Shown here piece after piece: positions 1,170 through 53,871 of a stretch of 64,000 nucleotides of DNA; the first letter of the stretch is position 1, and the number at the start of each line of letters is the position of its first letter. The stretch is from positions 1 to 64,000 of the IMG/VR virus record IMGVR_UViG_3300028920_002938; one strand, written 5' to 3'. Under the pieces are notes generated by a model, which made no database searches, had not been told where the DNA came from, and worked only from the letters and a program-made list of their open reading frames with translations. The position numbers and the translations under genes were made by a program. The stretch is from a virus.

Positions 1170-1669
1170 TATACATGACTCCCTGATTTTACTCCTTCGA
1201 TTTTTACATTCATCCATAATCTATTACCCTCTATAGGGCTAGTAGTTATGTTTTTAACATATATTATTGTAGGTTGCCTCATACTTCTTAGAGTACTGTT
1301 GACTGTACCATATGATATTGAACCAGACATTACAAATATTTTACGTGTATTTGGTACCAGTTTTATTGTATTCTCCCCAGACCAAGTCTTATCATAGTGA
1401 GTTTTAGAACCTAATACATCTAATAGTTCACCCACTGCTCCAGGTGTTGTGTTGTCTAATAGAATTTGTACGTTGTCTTTCTTTAGCCAAGTCTCTACTG
1501 TTATATTCCAATCTACCTGATCCCATCTAGAACATCTACAATCTATATGATGAGGCTCTGATAATGAAGAATAATAAATTAATAAATCTCCAGTGTATTC
1601 ATATTCTTTAGAAAAGGTAATTCCCTTTGTATCACCAAATGTATAGTTAAAATTATAGTGCTTGCTCAT
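1169..1669 (-). CDS. Distal tail protein, paralogue of the 2993-3655 C-terminal domain
   Basis: This 166-residue protein has no function I recognise. Residues ~27-58 (GDLLIYYSS, IDCRCSRWD, WNITVETW) align with GNALIYYSC, LECNIGRWD and YDITIETY in the protein of 2993-3655, and both continue with a PGAVxEL motif and an IxVKNI/VKSI then VKIEG end. So this gene is the C-terminal module alone, without the N-terminal carboxypeptidase-regulatory-like sandwich. It sits among fibre genes and is therefore most likely a receptor-binding or fibre-tip module. It overlaps its neighbours on both sides by TAATG, meaning translational coupling. Confidence 0.6.
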   Translation of the reverse strand: MSKHYNFNYTFGDTKGITFSKEYEYTGDLLIYYSSLSEPHHIDCRCSRWDQVDWNITVETWLKKDNVQILLDNTTPGAVGELLDVLGSKTHYDKTWSGENTIKLVPNTRKIFVMSGSISYGTVNSTLRSMRQPTIIYVKNITTSPIEGNRLWMNVKIEGVKSGSHV

Positions 1670-1848: not shown

Positions 1849-2958
1849 TTAAGACACTACAGCAAGCTTACGAGTATTACCAGAAGCATCTTTAATAGTT
1901 ATATAACCTGTGACACTTTCACCACCAAGTGCTGTATGACTTCCAAATTTAACCACACCACTACCATTAGGATTAAGGTAAATATTTTTATCACTATATG
2001 TACCAATAATTGAATCTGTATCTTCTTGGAAATACATAAAATTAGTATTATTTTCATCAAGTATAAAATATCGACCACTAGCTACACGAAGTTCAATATC
2101 ACCAACATCAAATAATACAAAATTTGGATATGTATCTGTATCATTAACCTGTAGTTTCATATTACGGTCAGTAGCACCACCTTCAATAACGCAAGAAGTT
2201 CCATCATCAGTAAATTTAAAAGTACCAGTACCCCCTTCACTAAATTGTATATAGCCAGAAGACGTATTTAGTTGTACTCTATCGTTATCAGCATCAAGAA
2301 AGATATATGGATTATTTGCAGAACTGTTAGCATAAATATAAAGATCATCTCCAGCATCACTACCACCATATATACGGCTATTATCACTATTTAAATCAAA
2401 TTTAAACAGTTGTGAACCTTGTCTATTAAAGATTATATCAGAATATGTATCAATAGTTATACCAGCTCCGTCAGACAACAACATATACGGATATGTATCA
2501 GTTGTATTAACACGCAGTCTTAAATTTTTTGTAGCAATAGTGCCATCACCACCAGCTAATGTAGTAGTTGTACCATCACAATAAAATCTAAAAAATGATG
2601 TACCATCATAATATCCCCCAAAATATCCATCAGTCTCTAATCTAAAAGTCACTCTAGAATTATCAAGCATTCGTAATTGTGGATAATTCGTACTATTAGC
2701 AGTAAGATACAAATCACCACCAGCGCCACCGCCAGTAATAATACTATTGTCATCTGAAAGTTCGAAAGTGAACATTGTAGTGCCATCATCTTTCATTACA
2801 ACCTCACTACTAGCATCTAGTGTTATGTCATCTGGGGCATCCATATTATACCAATCAGAACCAGTGTTGTTATGTCTAATTTCTGGAACCATTGTATTCC
2901 AATTAGAGTAAGACACATTATTTCCGCTAGCCATTGTGTCATACCAATTTGTTGCCAT
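1849..2958 (-). CDS. Repetitive beta-rich tail fibre
   Basis: A 369-residue protein made of about four degenerate ~70-residue repeats, each with F.F...DNSIITGG, GDLYLxANST and YPxLxL segments (for example residues ~65-100, 190-230, 245-285). This is typical of trimeric beta-helical tail fibres. The C-terminus GYITIKDASGNTRKLAVVS closely resembles the terminal tag of many phage and archaeal-virus fibres. It probably binds the host surface at the distal tail. GGAGG is placed upstream of the ATG, and the recurrent AT-rich late motif lies at 2972-2994. Composition is rich in Asn, Thr, Gly and Asp. Confidence 0.75.
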   Translation of the reverse strand: MATNWYDTMASGNNVSYSNWNTMVPEIRHNNTGSDWYNMDAPDDITLDASSEVVMKDDGTTMFTFELSDDNSIITGGGAGGDLYLTANSTNYPQLRMLDNSRVTFRLETDGYFGGYYDGTSFFRFYCDGTTTTLAGGDGTIATKNLRLRVNTTDTYPYMLLSDGAGITIDTYSDIIFNRQGSQLFKFDLNSDNSRIYGGSDAGDDLYIYANSSANNPYIFLDADNDRVQLNTSSGYIQFSEGGTGTFKFTDDGTSCVIEGGATDRNMKLQVNDTDTYPNFVLFDVGDIELRVASGRYFILDENNTNFMYFQEDTDSIIGTYSDKNIYLNPNGSGVVKFGSHTALGGESVTGYITIKDASGNTRKLAVVS

Positions 2959-2971
2959 TCTATTCTACCTC

Positions 2972-2994
2972 CATTATAAATAAAAACATACATT
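2972..2994 (-). promoter_or_regulatory. Recurrent late AT-rich motif (copy a)
   Basis: On the minus strand this reads AATGTATGTTTTTATTTATA. It starts at the stop of the preceding gene and lies just upstream of the fibre gene. The same motif precedes at least twelve other structural genes, so it is a candidate virus-specific late promoter. Confidence 0.5.
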
Positions 2995-3655
2995 ATAGTG
3001 GGCTTAATATCTTACCCTCTATTTTTACAGCAAAGAAATTCTTAGTGAGAAATGTGTCACTAATAGATTTGACTGCTACAATTCTCCTTTCTCTTATACT
3101 AGATATATTATATCCCCCTTTTGGTGATATTATAATACTATTAGCAGAACAATATGTAGAGTCAATAAATGTAGGCTTACCTAATACCTTATATAACTCT
3201 CTTACAGCTCCAGGTCTTAGATTTCTGTAGAGAGTATCTCTAACACCAGATACCATATATGTCTCTATTGTTATATCGTAGTTGTTTTCATCCCACCTAC
3301 CTATATTACACTCAAGATGATAGTTAGGATATTGGTTGCAGGAATAATAGATTAGAGCATTACCTGAATATCTATATGATGACTTTAGATTAAAGTTAAG
3401 ACTCTTGCCTGGGTCTACAATATCAAATGTAAATGTTGTTGATAGTTTTTGTGAACCAACACTATTCTTTATTTTAGCCTTTGCGGTACATCCTGAATCT
3501 ACAACATCTTGTATATTGATATAATACTTACCATCACTATCACTATATCCAGTGACAGAACCATCATATGTAATTGTTATTGTAGCATTAGCAGTGGGAT
3601 TACCACTCTTATCATAAACATATCCATATAAGGCATATGGAAATGAAAGTGCCAT
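2993..3655 (-). CDS. Tail adhesin: regulatory-like Ig sandwich plus shared C-terminal module
   Basis: A 220-residue protein. Residues ~1-95 (YALYGYVYDKSGNPTANA, YYINIQDVV, FDIVDPGKSLNF) resemble the carboxypeptidase regulatory-like / Cna-B beta-sandwich; a closely related domain starts the I-D-x-L-I repeat protein of 24568-27816 (YVVYGLVEKEGSPL, YYAIDIQNSADNG, LDISGPAEEINF). Residues ~96-220 match the whole protein of 1169-1669. So tail genes here share exchangeable modules. Probable role: fibre or fibre adaptor. It overlaps the preceding giant gene at the stop/start junction (3655). Confidence 0.6.
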   Translation of the reverse strand: MALSFPYALYGYVYDKSGNPTANATITITYDGSVTGYSDSDGKYYINIQDVVDSGCTAKAKIKNSVGSQKLSTTFTFDIVDPGKSLNFNLKSSYRYSGNALIYYSCNQYPNYHLECNIGRWDENNYDITIETYMVSGVRDTLYRNLRPGAVRELYKVLGKPTFIDSTYCSANSIIISPKGGYNISSIRERRIVAVKSISDTFLTKNFFAVKIEGKILSPL

Positions 3656-6600
3656 TACTTACCACCTATATTTAATGTTTCTGCATCACTTACTGCAACC
3701 ATTATAACATCATCCTCATATACATCAATACTTGGCTCGTAAAATCCTACAATATATATATTCCAAACATAATTAGTTTCGTTCCAGTAGTATATGGCTT
3801 CTCCACTATCTAATGTTGTAGATATATGAGTATCAGCTATATCTTTAAGTGTTGTTGCTGCATTGTCAGTCCATCCAACATAATTCTTACCAGCAGTAGA
3901 TGTAGTTAAACTAACTGACCTAGAATTAGAGTAGGACATATCTGCATTACCAACCATATCTATCTGTGTATCACCACCAGATTCAGTTAGATATATCTTA
4001 ACTATGTCGTATGTATGTATGTCAAAGTTGTCTCCAGAGTCATTATATGGATGATATTCATACCACCATCCATTCACATACCAATCATTGTTGTAATTTC
4101 CACTCTTATTCCATATAGATATATACTCTCCACTATTAAATGTTATACCAGAAGAATTATCTATAATGTCAGCACAATCCACCGCAGTAGTATTATCACC
4201 CAACCACACAAAGTATTCTAGTCCGTTTGTCCTAATAGTAGTATTGTATGTTTCAGGAGGTGATGGGGGCTGGTACTCATGGATACCTATATCAGTTGTG
4301 CCGACTCTACTGTTACCCCAGAAATCTGTAGATGGTGCATTTACATCAGTACCGTTATTGATGCATGGAGAAGTGGCAGTAATGTTAAAGTTACCATTAT
4401 CTGAATTAACAAATTGTGGGTTGCCGTATACAGCTTCTTCTCCAAAGTTCCAATCAGTAAGGTTAGTATAAGTAGTTTCATCCCAACGGTTTTTATATGT
4501 ACCAGAGGCACGATAATAACAATTATTACCTATATTAAGGTCTGTTGGTAATAAAAAGTGTCCACCAATAAAATTACTACTACCGTCGTATTTGGTTAAA
4601 AATATGTTATTGTAGATATAAAACTCATCAATTGTCGTACCATTTATCTGATCTTGGCTATAATGACCTATTTGAATGAGATTATAATTATTATTACTCC
4701 CAAGATGAACAACGTTATTATAAATATAGATATGATGGAATAAATCACCAGAGAAACCAGTGTTAGATATTCCAAGTGGTTCTGGATATGTGAGACTTGT
4801 AACGTCGTCTGGTTTTGTAAGGTTAATTATGTTGTTATAAATATATATGTATTCATAATGACCAGTAGTTTCAGTATTCAAAGAAATTCCAGATGCATTA
4901 CCATATATAATATTATTAAAAATACTAATATTATGAGATACGCCACGAGCGTCAAGCATTATTGCCGGTCCACCATAATAATCTCCACCTACTTGCTTTT
5001 GTAAAATACCTGTACCTGTATTGTTAATTGTATTATAACAACAATAACCGCCATTACACCCACCTTTCATATCAATATTTTCAGCGCGGTTATTAATTAA
5101 TGTATTATTATTGATACTAAAATCAGTAACATTCTCAAAGCTTACTGTCTCCTGAGTGCTTTTAACCGCGCCAGTCCAATTATTGAAATTATCATAAAGA
5201 TAATTCCATTCAAATGTGATATTGTTATTCCCGTTTTTACTTTTTATAGCATGTCCTGAACTATTTGAAATAGTGCAATTATCAACACGTATATTATTTA
5301 CAGGGTCTTCACCTGCTAATACGCCAAGTGATATTCCGCCACTAGCACTATGATTAATTGTAAGACCAGTAATTCGAATATAATTACTTTCGTGAATTTG
5401 AAATACAGCATTAATACCATTGCTATATTGTGTAGGACAATTAGTTCCATCAACTATTACGACATCGTTTAAGTAATTTTGTATTGTTAGCCAATCGGAT
5501 GACGCATCTTTACTTGTAATATCTATATGTCCACTCCACGGTGTATATGTTCCAGCCATGATATGAATTGTATCTCCATTCGTACTCTCATTTACGGCTT
5601 TCCAAATTGTTTTAAAGGGATATATTAAACTTCCGTTATAATTATTATCGTCGCCAGATGTTGTATTAACGTAATAATCTGGACCTGAATATGGTCCACA
5701 TGATATATCGTATTCGTGTATTCCGATATCTGTGATACCGATTCTACTGTTCCCCCAGAAGTCTAATAACGGTGCGTCTACATTGCTACCATTGTTGATG
5801 GCAGGTGAATTAACTGTTATGTTAAAATCGCCACCGTCTGGGTCAACAAACGCAGGGGAAGCATTGATTTCATCTGTTCCCCAATACCTAGAGTCCGACA
5901 CGTTGAAAAGGTTATGGTCTACATTGTGGTATTGTAGCAATAATTTATCAGATTTATCTGGGATATAAATACCATATGAAGCACCAGCAGAGTTATTATC
6001 CATAATGTTGTTTCTTATAGTTAAATTTACAAAGCTACTATTTACGTCAGTAATAAAAATTCCTACGCTAATGTTATACATAACATTGTTCCAAAAACCA
6101 CAATTTGTTTTAAGATGTGACCCTGGTTCACTTGTATGATTATTTACATGAAATGCGTCGCTATCTCCTGATCCGTTGTAAATATTATTATAGAACGATA
6201 TATTGTCTAATGTTCCGCCCTGTTCAGTCCCCATTGTATATCCTGTTGTATTGCCCCAAACAATATTATTGTATATCGAAATATTACTGGCATCATCGTC
6301 AAAGGCGTCAACGTATATACCGCCATTACCTAAGTTGCCACCTACAATTGTGACATTAACTCTATTATTATAGATAAAACCATCGCGAGCAGTGTTTTTA
6401 GCATCTATATTAAGTTTATAATTGTGATAAAGGTAATTATCCCTAACCCAAAACCGTGTTACATTTGATATGGTTATAACCTCATTTGGAGCTGGATTAT
6501 GTGCAGGATTCCAACTGTTCTGACAATTGTATAGAGTGTTATTCTCAACTATAATGTCTTCTATATATCCATATGCTGGATTTCCCGGATAAAAATATAT

Positions 6601-49682: not shown

Positions 49683-50267
49683 ATGAAACAAAATAAATCA
49701 ACCGGAATATTTGAGGCAAACGAATTTGCAGAAATACGGGATTTATTGCTTGACGTGGCAAACAATCCCATTAAATACATTGACTATGAATATAAGGAAC
49801 AAAATAATTTATTAGATGATTTTAAAGAATTAATAAAATCATCTGTAAAATATGGTATTCAATTTAGATATACAAATCCAGAGTCAAAAAAACAAATGAT
49901 TTACATTGATAAAAAAGACAACAGAATAAAACTATTAGGGGTTAATGGCAATGTAACAAAATCAAATACAATCTTCCACTACAGCAGATTAAAATACATT
50001 ATCGCAAAAGGTCAAAACACATTAAGCATAAAGGCAATAACAAAAATTATTGCTGATAGAAAAACAGTTAAAACCATTGATATAGACCACTTTGATAATA
50101 ATAAACAAAACAATCAATTGTCAAACTTAAAACCAGTTCCTCATTCAATCAACGTAAACAATAATTATGATAAACTCAAAAAACTCATTGCAGAAGGCAA
50201 AATCCACCAAGCAAAACAAACAGCAAAAAAATTAGATGTAAGTTACCTTCTAACTTACATCCTCTAA
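49683..50267 (+). CDS. HNH-like endonuclease (HNH_3 type), leaderless
   Basis: A 194-residue protein. The motif IDIDHFDNNKQNNQLSNLKP near residues 136-155 matches the HNH_3 core (DHxDxNxxNNxxxNL) found in homing and phage-encoded nucleases; the His, second Asp and Asn residues are present. A preceding region (QMIYIDKKDNRIKLLGVNG, FHYSRLKYIIAKG) fits the strand-rich N-terminal part. The C-terminus lies inside a terminator hairpin. Codon use is AAA/ATA-heavy, like the neighbours. Could be a mobile nuclease inserted between repeat clusters. Confidence 0.65.
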   Translation: MKQNKSTGIFEANEFAEIRDLLLDVANNPIKYIDYEYKEQNNLLDDFKELIKSSVKYGIQFRYTNPESKKQMIYIDKKDNRIKLLGVNGNVTKSNTIFHYSRLKYIIAKGQNTLSIKAITKIIADRKTVKTIDIDHFDNNKQNNQLSNLKPVPHSINVNNNYDKLKKLIAEGKIHQAKQTAKKLDVSYLLTYIL

Positions 50268-50280
50268 TCTTTTTTCTTTT
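50231..50280 (+). terminator. Terminator hairpin inside the end of the HNH-like gene
   Basis: GATGTAAGTTA (50235-50245) and TAACTTACATC (50251-50261) make a perfect 11-bp stem with a five-base loop. The stem encodes the last residues of the gene, and a TCTTTTTTCTTTT tract follows. The downstream small gene begins right after, so partial read-through would set its level. Confidence 0.65.
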
Positions 50281-50291
50281 AAGGTGATGAA

Positions 50292-50468
50292 ATGAAAAAA
50301 ATATGGAAAACAAAAACCTTCCCAACAAGGAGAGGTGCAATAAATTTTGCAAAAGCGAAAAGTATATCAAAACCCCCATACTGGGATAAAGCAATTATAC
50401 CAGATAAGAAAGGTAGACTAATTCAAACTAAAGTTTTTAAGGTTGATTACTTAGGTATTCAATCTTAA
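50292..50468 (+). CDS. 58-residue basic protein, unknown
   Basis: Starts at ATG 50292 with AAGGTGAT upstream. It reads MKKIWKTKTFPTRRGAINFA and continues KAKSISKPPYWDKAIIPDKK with a short strand-rich end. No domain is recognised; the size and basic charge suit a small DNA- or RNA-associated protein. A T-rich tract (50469-50486) ends the transcript. Confidence 0.6.
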   Translation: MKKIWKTKTFPTRRGAINFAKAKSISKPPYWDKAIIPDKKGRLIQTKVFKVDYLGIQS

Positions 50469-50486: not shown

Positions 50487-50588
50487 GCCATTCCTCTTTA
50501 TATCTGCAATCCAATATATTAATCGCCATTCCTCTTATTATTCCACTTTCAGAATATTAATCATTTTACATTCCCAGAACATTAACAA
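50487..50588. repeat. Promoter-type repeat cluster 1 (orphan)
   Basis: Two full units and one degenerate unit of the ~37-base repeat: on the plus strand GCCATTCCTCTTTATAT... ending AATATTAAT (50487-50523 and 50525-50561) and a partial third. Other clusters sit just upstream of a minus-strand TATA box. This one faces the convergent plus-strand genes, so it has either lost its gene or acts at a distance. Confidence 0.7.
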
Positions 50589-50632
50589 TTGTTTAATCTT
50601 ATTAAAATGAAAGAAAGAAAAAAAAGATGACC

Positions 50633-50764
50633 TTATTGCCATCTTTCATATTTTGGGCTGAGCGTATGACCGCAATCACATACGAACTCTTCATTTTGGT
50701 ATTTCTTTATTAGTTCTCTTATGTAATATGCTGTCTTACATTTCTTACATATTATTTTTATCAT
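50633..50764 (-). CDS. 43-residue zinc-ribbon microprotein, leaderless
   Basis: Begins MIKIICKKCKTAYYIRELIK and has a second pair CDCG, forming a single zinc ribbon (Cys6, Cys9, Cys29, Cys31). The ATG at 50764 is 26-27 bases from the TATA box centre at 50790, with no ribosome site, so the message is leaderless. Upstream lies one copy of the shared promoter repeat. A T/A-rich tract follows the stop. Confidence 0.65.
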   Translation of the reverse strand: MIKIICKKCKTAYYIRELIKKYQNEEFVCDCGHTLSPKYERWQ

Positions 50765-50786
50765 AATATCATATATAAGATATTAG

Positions 50787-50794
50787 TATATAAA
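50787..50794 (-). promoter_or_regulatory. TATA box of the 43-residue gene
   Basis: TTTATATA on the minus strand, ten bases from the repeat unit at 50805-50841. The distance to the ATG fits a leaderless transcript. Confidence 0.7.
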
Positions 50795-50804
50795 CTTATG
50801 TATT

Positions 50805-50841
50805 GCAGTTCCTCTTATTATTTCAGATCTTATATATTAAT
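50805..50841 (-). repeat. Promoter-associated repeat, cluster 2
   Basis: One full unit (plus strand GCAGTTCCTCTTATTATTTC ... ATTAAT) followed by a degenerate one (50843-50865). Ten bases separate it from the TATA box, the same arrangement as clusters 3 to 5. Confidence 0.7.
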
Positions 50842-50892
50842 ACCCATATTCTTATATCCTGCATATGTGAAAAAAATAAAGAAAAAAAAGAA

Positions 50893-51108
50893 TTAATGAG
50901 ATAAAAGCGTATCAATTTTATCAATGAAACCACTAATGATTAATGAATGGTAGCGTAACTCATCACTTGTTGTTAATAGTTTACAGTTATTTGCATCATG
51001 CCTTATCATACTGCGTAATTCATATAAGTATTCCTGTAGTATTTTGAAATTTCTCTGTGTTCCAGATAAAGATACATTTGTTATATCTGCTAATGCTATT
51101 CCGTCTAT
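50893..51108 (-). CDS. 71-residue helical protein without a normal start codon
   Basis: The frame is open from an in-frame TAG just upstream to the stop at 50893. It encodes IDGIALADITNVSLSGTQRN and further helical sequence ending in DTLLSH. There is no ATG, GTG or TTG at the expected site: the ideal GGAGGTGAT is followed by AAA-ATA-GAC. Initiation at AUA, a -1 shift from the nine-codon leader frame at 51131-51105, or a recent loss of ATG are the options. The similar gene at 51554 has the same GGAGGTGAT and then a normal ATG. Confidence 0.5.
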   Translation of the reverse strand: MDGIALADITNVSLSGTQRNFKILQEYLYELRSMIRHDANNCKLLTTSDELRYHSLIISGFIDKIDTLLSH

Positions 51109-51131
51109 TTTATCACCTCCTTTAATTTCAT
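51105..51131 (-). CDS. Eight-residue leaderless upstream frame
   Basis: ATG at 51131 lies 25 bases from the TATA box centre, at the expected transcription start. The frame encodes MKLKEVIK, contains the GGAGGTGAT of the next gene, and ends at a TAG that overlaps the ATA of the 71-residue frame. AAAA before the stop would allow a -1 slip into that frame. Confidence 0.3.
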   Translation of the reverse strand: MKLKEVIK

Positions 51132-51152
51132 ATATCTAATATAGATTATTAG

Positions 51153-51160
51153 TATATAAA
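51153..51160 (-). promoter_or_regulatory. TATA box of the 71-residue gene
   Basis: TTTATATA on the minus strand, ten bases from the repeat unit at 51171. Transcription should start near 51130. Confidence 0.7.
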
Positions 51161-51170
51161 CCTTGTGTTT

Positions 51171-51247
51171 GGCATTCCTCATTATATTTTCATTCCAGAA
51201 TATTAATATCCGTCATTCCTCTTTATATCCTAAGATCCAAATATTAA
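51171..51247 (-). repeat. Promoter-associated repeat, cluster 3
   Basis: Two units: plus-strand GGCATTCCTCATTATATTTT ... AATATTAAT (51171-51207) and GTCATTCCTCTTTATATCCT ... AATATTAAT (51212-51247), 41 bases apart start to start. Confidence 0.75.
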
Positions 51248-51290
51248 TAACTAAATAAAAAAAATATAAAGAAAAAAAAGATAAAGATGT

Positions 51291-51554
51291 TTACTGAAAA
51301 CCAACATCTGAATTTGGAACATTTTGTTTGCTGTTTATCATATCTGCAAAGTTCTTGATTTTTGTTATTAATTCCTTATTGACAATTACTACTAATTCAT
51401 CTTTTGTAAATTCGCTCTGTAACTTATTGACAATATCTTTCCCAGATATTCCGTCATCTGTATTCATTTTGCTGAATATTTCATCTGTGAGTTTGATTAA
51501 TTTGTCGTTTGTTGTTCTCATTACTGCTTGGAATTCTTCAAAGGTTTTTATCAT
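51291..51554 (-). CDS. 87-residue helical protein, unknown
   Basis: Reads MIKTFEEFQAVMRTTNDKLI, then a coil-forming DEIFSKMNTDDGISGKDIVN and NKLQSEFTKDELVVIVNKEL. All-helical and moderately acidic. AAAGGAGGTGATAAAGA lies just before the ATG. It belongs to the set of tiny minus-strand genes each with its own repeat-driven promoter, so it is likely co-regulated with them. Poly-T follows the stop. Function unknown. Confidence 0.6.
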   Translation of the reverse strand: MIKTFEEFQAVMRTTNDKLIKLTDEIFSKMNTDDGISGKDIVNKLQSEFTKDELVVIVNKELITKIKNFADMINSKQNVPNSDVGFQ

Positions 51555-51600
51555 TCTTTATCACCTCCTTTTGTTTCTATTATTAAGAATGTGTTACAAG

Positions 51601-51608
51601 TATATAAG
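51601..51608 (-). promoter_or_regulatory. TATA box of the 87-residue gene
   Basis: CTTATATA on the minus strand, ten bases from the repeat unit at 51619 and about 50 bases from the ATG. Confidence 0.65.
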
Positions 51609-51618
51609 TGTTTTGGTT

Positions 51619-51731
51619 GTCATTCCTCTTATTATTTGTCATATGGAATATTAATCCAGCCTTCCCCATTCCTCTTATTATTTTCCAATCCAGATATTAA
51701 TGGTCATTCTGGGCATTCCTCTTATTATCTG
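51619..51731 (-). repeat. Promoter-associated repeat, cluster 4
   Basis: Two full units (51619-51655 and 51664-51701) and one half unit (51712-51731) of the CATTCCTCTTATTAT ... AATATTAAT repeat. Starts are 46-47 bases apart. Confidence 0.75.
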
Positions 51732-51807
51732 AAAAAAAATATAAAAAAGATCTAATCATATATGATTGTCTAAAATTAAACAAAAGAAAAAAAAGAGATT
51801 AAAAAAC

Positions 51808-51870
51808 TTATTTGTGTTTTTCAATCCAAGTTTTAATTTCTATCCAAGTTTTTGGTAGTGCATACTGCAT
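51808..51870 (-). CDS. 20-residue peptide frame
   Basis: Directly follows the 99-residue gene (stop and ATG 2 bases apart) with AAAAAGGA upstream. It encodes MQYALPKTWIEIKTWIEKHK, an amphipathic helix with twin K-T-W-I-E repeats. Too short to trust without expression data, but the position and ribosome site suit a coupled peptide. Confidence 0.35.
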   Translation of the reverse strand: MQYALPKTWIEIKTWIEKHK

Positions 51871-51872
51871 AT

Positions 51873-52172
51873 TTATTTTTCCTTTTTAATTTTGTTTATC
51901 TGTTTCTGTAATTGTTTTATGTGTTCTAATAGTGTTTGCTCATTGTTTGATTGTTCTGTTTCTGTGTTATTCCATTGTAGTTTTTGCATTTGTTCAAAGA
52001 CTTTTGGGAAAATATCCCTTGAGATATTAACGCTATTTCTACCACATCTGTAATTAATGAATTCACTTCCACCATTAACCATACTTCTTATAGTATGTGT
52101 TCTTGTTTTTGTATTTCCATTATAGGTGTATTTTTCGCTTACCTCTTTTGTATCTAATACTTTACTTTCCAT
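51873..52172 (-). CDS. 99-residue protein with C-terminal coiled coil
   Basis: ATG at 52172 follows GGTGATAAAAAAC; an earlier in-frame ATG (52187) overlaps that site. Sequence: an N-terminal strand-rich part (YTYNGNTKTRTHTIRSMVNG, EFINYRCGRNSVNISRDIFP) and a C-terminal coiled coil (LLEHIKQLQKQINKIKKEK) after a Gln/Asn-rich linker. The sandwich-plus-coil layout suits a small regulator or oligomeric binding protein. It is the first gene of the repeat-promoter set. No family recognised. Confidence 0.6.
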   Translation of the reverse strand: MESKVLDTKEVSEKYTYNGNTKTRTHTIRSMVNGGSEFINYRCGRNSVNISRDIFPKVFEQMQKLQWNNTETEQSNNEQTLLEHIKQLQKQINKIKKEK

Positions 52173-52206
52173 GTTTTTTATCACCATATAGTAATAGACT
52201 TATGTA

Positions 52207-52214
52207 TATATAAA
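52207..52214 (-). promoter_or_regulatory. TATA box of the 99-residue gene
   Basis: TTTATATA on the minus strand, eight bases from the repeat unit at 52223. Confidence 0.7.
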
Positions 52215-52222
52215 GTTTATGG

Positions 52223-52380
52223 TTGCTATTCCTCTTTTTATTTTGTATGCAGAATATTAATAGTTCTCAATCACTATTCCTCTTATTATATTAATCCAAG
52301 AATATATATGCTGTTCCTCTTTTTATCTACCTACTCATATTTAATTAGTTCCTCTTTTTATTCAACCTATCTTATAAAAC
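52223..52380 (-). repeat. Promoter-associated repeat, cluster 5
   Basis: Four head-to-tail units starting at 52223, 52271, 52311 and 52346. The first is complete; the later ones keep the TTCCTCTTATTAT or TTCCTCTTTTTAT half and lose the AATATTAAT half step by step. The largest cluster of the set. Confidence 0.75.
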
Positions 52381-52425
52381 TATCTATATATATAGTCTAT
52401 GGTTAGTCTAAATACTAGTCTAGGT

Positions 52426-52983: not shown

Positions 52984-53871
52984 ATGAAAACAAATAGAGT
53001 GCATATAATAGAAAATAGTAAAGTCTTTACTAATGAAGTAAAGAAACTAAATAAGAAGGAAATAGAATATGAAAGAGTAGATGGTGAAAACTATATATGT
53101 TTAATTACTAATCACCACAGTTATCTATTCTATTCAAGTAAGCAGAATGTAAACCATATATTCTTTGTTAGAGTATTTGGCAAAGATAATATACAACAAA
53201 GACTAATATCTAAAACAAGTAAGAATGTAACAGAAAAGACTTGGCATGATAAGGATATAGTAGTCTATAAAGATGAGAAAATATCTACATATAGGAATAC
53301 AGATGTAGGTAATACTACTAATGTGCATAGAGTAGAAAATACAAATGAAACATTAGGTTATCCTTTTAAAAGGAAAATATCATTTGCCTTTATTAAGGAT
53401 AGTAAGGATAGATTACAGTATAGGAGAGAATGTATAGAATTATCTAAATACAATAGACAAGGTAAAAGAAAAAAGATGTTAGATGATGTATTCTGCACAA
53501 GAGTATTAAGACTATTCCTTAATCTAAAAGGGCATACAAATACAGAGATATATAATATACTAAGGGCAGAAGAAACTATATCTGGATATGCAGTAGTAGA
53601 AATAATGGAATACTTATATCAGGTAATAAGCAGTTATCACCCATATTTCTATCATAAGAATGGAACATGTAAGTATAACAAATATATTCTAAAGGAACAG
53701 ATAAGACAGATAAAACAAATAGGATTATTAGATTGTGATTATACTTTATGTAAGGTAAATAGAAATGTTCATAAGGATAGTAATCAAATAAAACAAGAAG
53801 ATGTTCAGGATTGGCTTAAACAAAGACAAGCACTATTAGATAAGGGTGAATTGTGGGAAGATATAGATTAA
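52984..53871 (+). CDS. 295-residue protein, unknown, possible replication or regulatory factor
   Basis: Not recognised. The N-terminal half (~1-110) is strand-rich (YICLITNHHSYLFYS, IFFVRVFGKDNIQQRL). The second half is helical and basic, with LRLFLNLKGHTNTEIYNILR and YAVVEIMEYLYQVISSYHPY resembling winged-helix arrangement, then Cys pairs (CKYNKY, LLDCDYTLCK). It lies between an operator cluster and a large repeat region with strong secondary structure, which would suit an initiator or repressor acting on it. Strong T-rich terminator follows at 53875-53910. Confidence 0.5.
   Translation: MKTNRVHIIENSKVFTNEVKKLNKKEIEYERVDGENYICLITNHHSYLFYSSKQNVNHIFFVRVFGKDNIQQRLISKTSKNVTEKTWHDKDIVVYKDEKISTYRNTDVGNTTNVHRVENTNETLGYPFKRKISFAFIKDSKDRLQYRRECIELSKYNRQGKRKKMLDDVFCTRVLRLFLNLKGHTNTEIYNILRAEETISGYAVVEIMEYLYQVISSYHPYFYHKNGTCKYNKYILKEQIRQIKQIGLLDCDYTLCKVNRNVHKDSNQIKQEDVQDWLKQRQALLDKGELWEDID

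Follow-up and report, generated by a model that had tools for sequence, protein, structure and literature searches.

Bipartite repeat units upstream of archaeal-type promoters as candidate regulator sites in a group of related head-tail viruses

Analysis of a 64,000-base window of a 66,890-base virus record (labelled G000) identified a bipartite, 36 nt unit that is repeated on the minus strand ahead of archaeal-type promoters, each heading one small gene. At an estimated probability of roughly 0.55, we read these units as sites of a single sequence-specific regulator, most likely a virus-encoded activator, that would act upstream of the BRE/TATA elements of a block of accessory genes; this reading is built on sequence patterns in the window virus and six relatives. 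The virus is probably a tailed virus of archaea, the archaeal host being judged from the BRE/TATA promoters and poly-T gene ends only.

Repeat units and their distribution

The unit comprises a first box, ATTAATAT, a variable stretch of approximately 12 nt, and then ATAWWAN followed by a core, which is GAGGAAY in the window; across viruses the second box reads ATAWWANG(A/C)G(G/T)AA. Scanned over the 66,890-bp record, a 36-nt matrix picked out 12 sites that score 26.8-40.0 bits; every one of them is on the minus strand and within 50490-52383. The next-best site in the whole record scored 15.1 bits and the best site across ten Markov (randomised) genomes 13.7 bits. As the matrix was trained on the same 12 sites, and 26.8-40.0 bits were computed with those sites included, the gap to the remaining sites is what counts. 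GAGGAA[CT] was found 22 times genome-wide, with 12 of the occurrences inside the 1.9-kb block and those 12 on one strand. The sequence-only reading had counted fourteen units in five clusters, with one to four copies at promoters; the matrix scan reduced the units to 12 complete ones and bore out the clusters (4+3+2+1+2 in A, B, C, D and E, respectively), within which neighbouring units are 35-48 nt apart. That reading had also regarded occurrence of the unit elsewhere without a TATA box as evidence against itself, and genome-wide this was seen only at the orphan cluster (E) at the end of the block. The units are as follows.

52348-52383, minus strand: cluster A unit 1, weak first box, core GAGGAAC, 26.8 bits
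52313-52348, minus strand: cluster A unit 2, 31.8 bits
52276-52311, minus strand: cluster A unit 3, 30.8 bits
52228-52263, minus strand: cluster A unit 4, promoter-proximal, 13 nt to TATA
51715-51750, minus strand: cluster B unit 1, from the matrix
51668-51703, minus strand: cluster B unit 2, from the matrix
51622-51657, minus strand: cluster B unit 3, promoter-proximal
51215-51250, minus strand: cluster C unit 1, from the matrix
51174-51209, minus strand: cluster C unit 2, promoter-proximal
50808-50843, minus strand: cluster D, single unit, from the matrix
50528-50563, minus strand: orphan cluster E unit 1, no TATA box
50490-50525, minus strand: orphan cluster E unit 2, no TATA box

In the matrix, information content sits in the two boxes and the spacer between them is variable, which argues for selection on contacts. 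An origin of the units by recent tandem duplication or gene conversion was rejected, since the inter-box spacers are not homogenised.

Promoters and the genes behind them

In clusters A-D, the last unit (measured from the end of GGAAY) lies exactly 13 nt from a TATA octamer in four of four cases. Each of these clusters has an archaeal-type BRE/TATA, TTTATATA or CTTATATA, with purine-rich BRE-like bases upstream, and each BRE/TATA heads one small frame followed by a poly-T tract. The lengths of 99, 87, 71 and 43 aa, one gene per box, agree with those first read from the sequence. A gap of 8-10 bases had been given at the same time; its constancy held and its value did not, 8-10 having been counted from a longer unit. 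None of the other TTTATATA-like boxes of the window has a unit, and no TATA box is present at the fifth cluster (50490-50563). The promoters and genes of the block are given below.

52207-52214, minus strand: TATA box TTTATATA of the 99-aa gene
51873-52172, minus strand: 99-aa gene (104 aa if started at an upstream ATG, 52187)
51766-51797, minus strand: poly-T tract after the 99-aa gene, terminator-like, family D4
51601-51608, minus strand: TATA box CTTATATA of the 87-aa gene
51291-51554, minus strand: 87-aa gene, homologue in relative G003 (43 %)
51251-51282, minus strand: poly-T tract after the 87-aa gene, family D4
51153-51160, minus strand: TATA box TTTATATA of the 71-aa gene
50893-51108, minus strand: 71-aa reading frame, begins at ATA, preceded by GGAGGTGATAAA
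50861-50892, minus strand: poly-T tract after the 71-aa gene, family D4
50787-50794, minus strand: TATA box TTTATATA of the 43-aa gene
50633-50764, minus strand: 43-aa CxxC-type zinc-ribbon-like gene, weak matches only, homologue in G003 (33 %)
50597-50628, minus strand: poly-T tract after the 43-aa gene, family D4

Three of the four array-driven genes have a Shine-Dalgarno-like leader and the 43-aa gene alone looks nearly leaderless, so that, of the earlier description 'leaderless or short-leader', the first term fits at most one gene in four. The 71-aa gene displays no ATG, GTG or TTG at its start and has a GGAGGTGAT Shine-Dalgarno sequence ahead of ATA. Shine-Dalgarno GAGGTGAT followed by ATA was observed in two array-driven genes, namely at window positions 51106-51108 (minus strand) and in a locus of G003 (L008, approximately 1299-1304, plus strand). 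In both, homologues or position call for a start codon and there is no ATG, GTG or TTG nearby; AUA initiation or lost starts are possible explanations.

The array-driven proteins yielded no confident match to Pfam or PHROGs, and no HTH family matched any of the four when scanned singly; an Aca8-type wHTH regulator, which in the Sulfolobales viruses marks the Aca8 group only, was not seen among them. The 99-aa protein is predicted to comprise four strands, a helix and a C-terminal coiled coil. The structure model of the 99/104-aa protein was good; against PDB folds it gave no significant match (weak COMM, TnsE and PURA hits), and matches to PDB sequences were mostly designed coiled coils. PADLOC, run on 39 proteins of G000, returned only DNA methyltransferase models among the 25 best-represented families, with the matching protein not specified. 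A C-5 cytosine DNA methyltransferase-like frame is present at L005:1222-2436 (genome 63221-64435, plus strand), and Pfam, PHROGs and PADLOC scans of the set including this frame listed DNA methylase families. Outside the block, a late promoter before the small terminase gene (window 49035, minus strand; GAAACCTTTATATACTATGACT) is kept in relatives and has no array unit.

Related viruses and the layout of the block

Terminase and pattern scans identified six related viruses with the whole or a partial block in the same place, their terminases being 51-86 % identical (G001 86 %, G002 78 %, G003 70 %, G009 68 %, G008 67 % and G013 51 %). In all six, the block shares the strand of the terminase gene and immediately precedes the late genes. 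Terminase scans of genome contigs returned no related provirus, and protein searches of phage records gave no close relative. A promoter pattern scan of viral contigs returned 48 stretches, two of them from known relatives; a generic unit-pattern screen of the rest revealed no block.

Our spacing and core statistics cover seven genomes, the relatives being mostly fragments. Core and TATA octamer are separated by 13 nt at every one of the 23 promoter-proximal units in G000, G001, G002, G003 and G009 (the 9-letter TATA matches in this count start one base before the octamer). The gap was approximately 11 nt in G013, versus 13 in those five viruses, and the gap from element to TATA was variable in G008 (16, 16, 18-19 and 23 nt). 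An inverted core was present approximately 47 nt upstream at some single-unit clusters, three in G009 and two in G003. The 104-aa, 87-aa and 43-aa families occur in the same order in the window and in G003, with other cassettes interposed, and the 104-aa family, to which the window's 99-aa gene belongs, was array-driven in five of five genomes covering the region (eight copies). One G003 cassette (L008:3425-3545) contained no evident protein gene; it is GC-rich and RNA-like in an AT-rich virus, and its predicted folding is stronger than that of shuffled sequences (z -4.4). In G001, an array promoter is likewise followed by a short, hairpin-containing stretch (z -3.8). Both are putative RNA-like cassettes, and Rfam searches of three relatives gave no match above gathering scores.

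Further repeats were observed beyond the block. A second module at L008:5240-6480 displayed AATCGGGGC-like core units and has, besides an end array of its own, a second HNH gene. Related units with the core AATCTGGC, akin to those of this module, were found in L066, with no clear promoter layout worked out. A more distant relative, L068, carried an unrelated repeated palindrome, GGTAGGNATACCTACC, at 2417-5958.

We also considered whether the units are iterons of a replication origin at the junction of the two transcription arms. The cumulative GC skew minimum falls at 50-52 kb, and the block lies between divergent arms in relatives whose sequence spans both. However, the skew turns where the coding strand switches, which accounts for it without an origin, and the units keep an exact distance from each promoter, are spread over as much as 4 kb and have genes between them. 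On this spacing we rejected iterons as the main role of the units and consider such a role extremely improbable.

Core differences between viruses

The core differs between viruses at this shared layout. It is GAGGAAY in the window virus and predominantly GCGGAAY in G001 and G003; G002 cores are mixed, G009 has GCGTAAK, and G013 mostly GCGTAAC. G008 carries GGCGGACCCC, an unrelated element without a clear first box. The majority core of its own virus was fitted by 65 of 71 units, versus at most 43 in 10,000 label shuffles, a descriptive comparison given that units of the same virus are not independent. The 104-aa family sits behind GAGGAAT, GCGGAAT, GCGTAAK or GGCGGACCC, depending on the virus, and duplicate 104-aa genes in one virus share the core of that virus. 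The sister viruses G008 and G009 (terminase 76 %, support 1.0) have a 66-aa gene that is closely similar at the DNA level, and the element upstream of its TATA box is GGCGGACCCC in G008 and GCGTAAG in G009. A similar gene behind differing elements indicates that the element goes with the virus and not with the gene. Furthermore, GCGTAA is common to G009 and the most distant virus, G013, and the core therefore does not simply track the terminase tree. This pattern is what a swap of regulator specificity would produce, though it is not proof of one. We found no protein covarying with the core.

A host transcription factor, with cores that differ by host species, would yield an identical pattern if its specificity differed among hosts, and related tailed viruses could have switched host. 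The sisters G008 and G009 weigh against this, as unrelated elements before their similar 66-aa gene would imply that the host factor became very different within a short distance. We regard a host factor as improbable.

The end array and its neighbours

The orphan cluster faces convergent genes, and a divergent operon flanks the block.

49683-50267, plus strand: HNH endonuclease-like gene, 194 aa, convergent with the block
50292-50468, plus strand: gene for a 58-aa basic protein, convergent with the block, with 22 bp between its end and the orphan cluster
52984-53871, plus strand: 295-aa protein in a divergent operon, conserved in G008 and G009, regulator candidate only

In G000, G002, G003 (twice), G008, G009 and G013, a convergent HNH gene or small-protein/HNH pair has its 3' end 22-100 bp from an array that lacks a TATA box. 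In G001, an AT-rich box is present at the end array, at a different spacing. The end array might be a promoter severed when the HNH gene inserted, might keep convergent transcripts apart, or might serve as the site where cassettes enter. HNH types in the position that corresponds to window 49683-50468 differ in G013 and G008.

Two neighbouring proteins were considered as the factor that binds the element and rejected. Covariation with the HNH protein was hinted at by G008, which has another element and lacks the window-type HNH, but G013 combines a different HNH with a G009-like core. The 295-aa divergent neighbour is conserved but does not track the core. Its AlphaFold model was poor (mean pLDDT 40), the C-terminus showing no more than a winged-helix-like succession of elements, and it had no match among PDB sequences.

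The recurrence of the TATA-less array near convergent HNH pairs in these six viruses could also mean that the arrays are sites of recombination or cassette exchange, with the convergent HNH driving gene gain and n genes accompanied by n+1 arrays, the last TATA-less. Homologues do keep their order while cassettes appear and vanish between them. Recombination sites would, however, have no need of a fixed 13-nt gap to TATA, the spacers and flanks are not homogenised, and HNH type does not track the core, as G013 illustrates. Cassette exchange as the function of the arrays is thus very doubtful. A broader and speculative picture, to which we give a small chance, is that of a switchable code in which each virus has its own regulator and core, accessory genes would be active only behind local arrays, and the TATA-less array on the HNH side would be the entry point for cassettes.

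Comparison with known systems

Comparable arrays in this type of virus were not described in the literature searched, coverage of which was incomplete. Closest among published cases are the virus-specific early-gene motifs of Sulfolobales viruses, which share the logic and differ in anatomy and virus group. In SIRV2, SIFV, SMV2 and others, one virus-specific regulatory sequence precedes small early genes, and several motif-bearing genes are known or predicted anti-defence genes, some of them tested (PMC11065993). As in those viruses, each virus has one sequence, which precedes many small genes, each standing singly behind its own BRE/TATA; the TATA/BRE is constant while the flanking motif changes from virus to virus; and one gene bears the motif wherever looked for, aca8 there and the 104-aa family here (PMC11065993). 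In contrast, the Sulfolobales motif encompasses the core promoter, whereas the unit described here is separate and bipartite, in arrays of 1-4, 13 nt upstream of TATA. The Sulfolobales motif was reported for rod-shaped, filamentous, bicauda-type and spindle-shaped viruses (PMC11065993), and ours is found in head-tail viruses. By analogy, the array-driven genes may have an anti-defence role.

Aca8 in SIRV2 is proposed to silence after the early burst (PMC11065993), and the units could likewise be the operators through which a virus-specific repressor shuts down the accessory genes, either once an early burst is over or in a carrier state, with the core as its immunity specificity. We consider this rather unlikely. 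In the nearest archaeal case, Aca8 is the presumed repressor (PMC11065993), and the 104-aa family, like Aca8 genes, is present wherever the region is covered and always with the element. Virus-specific cores that switch between sisters while the layout is kept resemble L5-clade repressor sites (PMC6550527). The units also share with L5/Bxb1 stoperators of cluster A mycobacteriophages their asymmetry, their orientation mostly with transcription, and their uniformity within a phage and divergence between related phages (PMC6550527). Unlike the units, stoperators are genome-wide, mostly off promoters and block elongation (PMC6550527); the units are promoter-linked and confined to one block, at 50.5-52.4 kb. 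Moreover, the proximal core ends 13 nt upstream of TATA and need not cover BRE/TATA, most copies are 40-170 bp upstream, too far for occlusion to operate, and neither a repressor nor an integrase was recognised in a non-exhaustive search of the genome.

An activator site is more likely than a repressor site, favoured by a position outside the TBP/TFB space, the copies far upstream and the precedents of EarA and Ptr2 (PMC5512572). Binding upstream of BRE is typical of archaeal activators; at the fla promoter of Methanococcus maripaludis, four 6-bp sites used by EarA directly precede the BRE (PMC5512572). The EarA (fla) and Ptr2 (Methanocaldococcus jannaschii) sites resemble the arrays as multiple sites just upstream of BRE/TATA (PMC5512572). 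They differ in that EarA has 6-bp sites at one host operon, whilst bipartite units are repeated here at many viral promoters. No EarA or Ptr2 relative was identified in this virus.

Proposed mechanism and significance

The sequence-only reading had taken the repeat for the site of an activator or repressor. Its regulator-site interpretation gains from the constant spacing to BRE/TATA, the single small gene per promoter, the regulon-like block and the six relatives alike; it loses, as far as an activator is concerned, from the inconstant gaps of G008 (16-23 nt), the gap of approximately 11 nt in G013 and the orphan array, which promoter activation leaves unexplained.

Under the activator reading, a regulator, probably of viral origin, would bind just upstream of BRE/TATA and help to place TBP/TFB on the promoters of single-gene accessory cassettes, which might be expressed as one temporal class and include anti-host genes. 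Its site would have two components. ATTAATAT and ATAWWA, separated by approximately two helical turns, would form the constant one, and a core (GMGKAA for most members) the one that sets specificity; this core has changed between related viruses with position and register kept. Cooperative binding at additional upstream copies, in direct or inverted orientation, would increase occupancy, so that copy number would set promoter strength.

To our knowledge, few regulators of archaeal head-tail viruses have been characterised. The present data describe a compact promoter grammar, in which a first box is followed by a second box whose core is exchangeable, a gap of 13 nt and BRE/TATA, across seven related genomes, among them sister viruses with unrelated elements before a shared gene. 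This grammar provides a means of tracking down the regulator and may, if the analogy with the Sulfolobales viruses holds, serve to pick candidate anti-host genes in viruses without cultured relatives.
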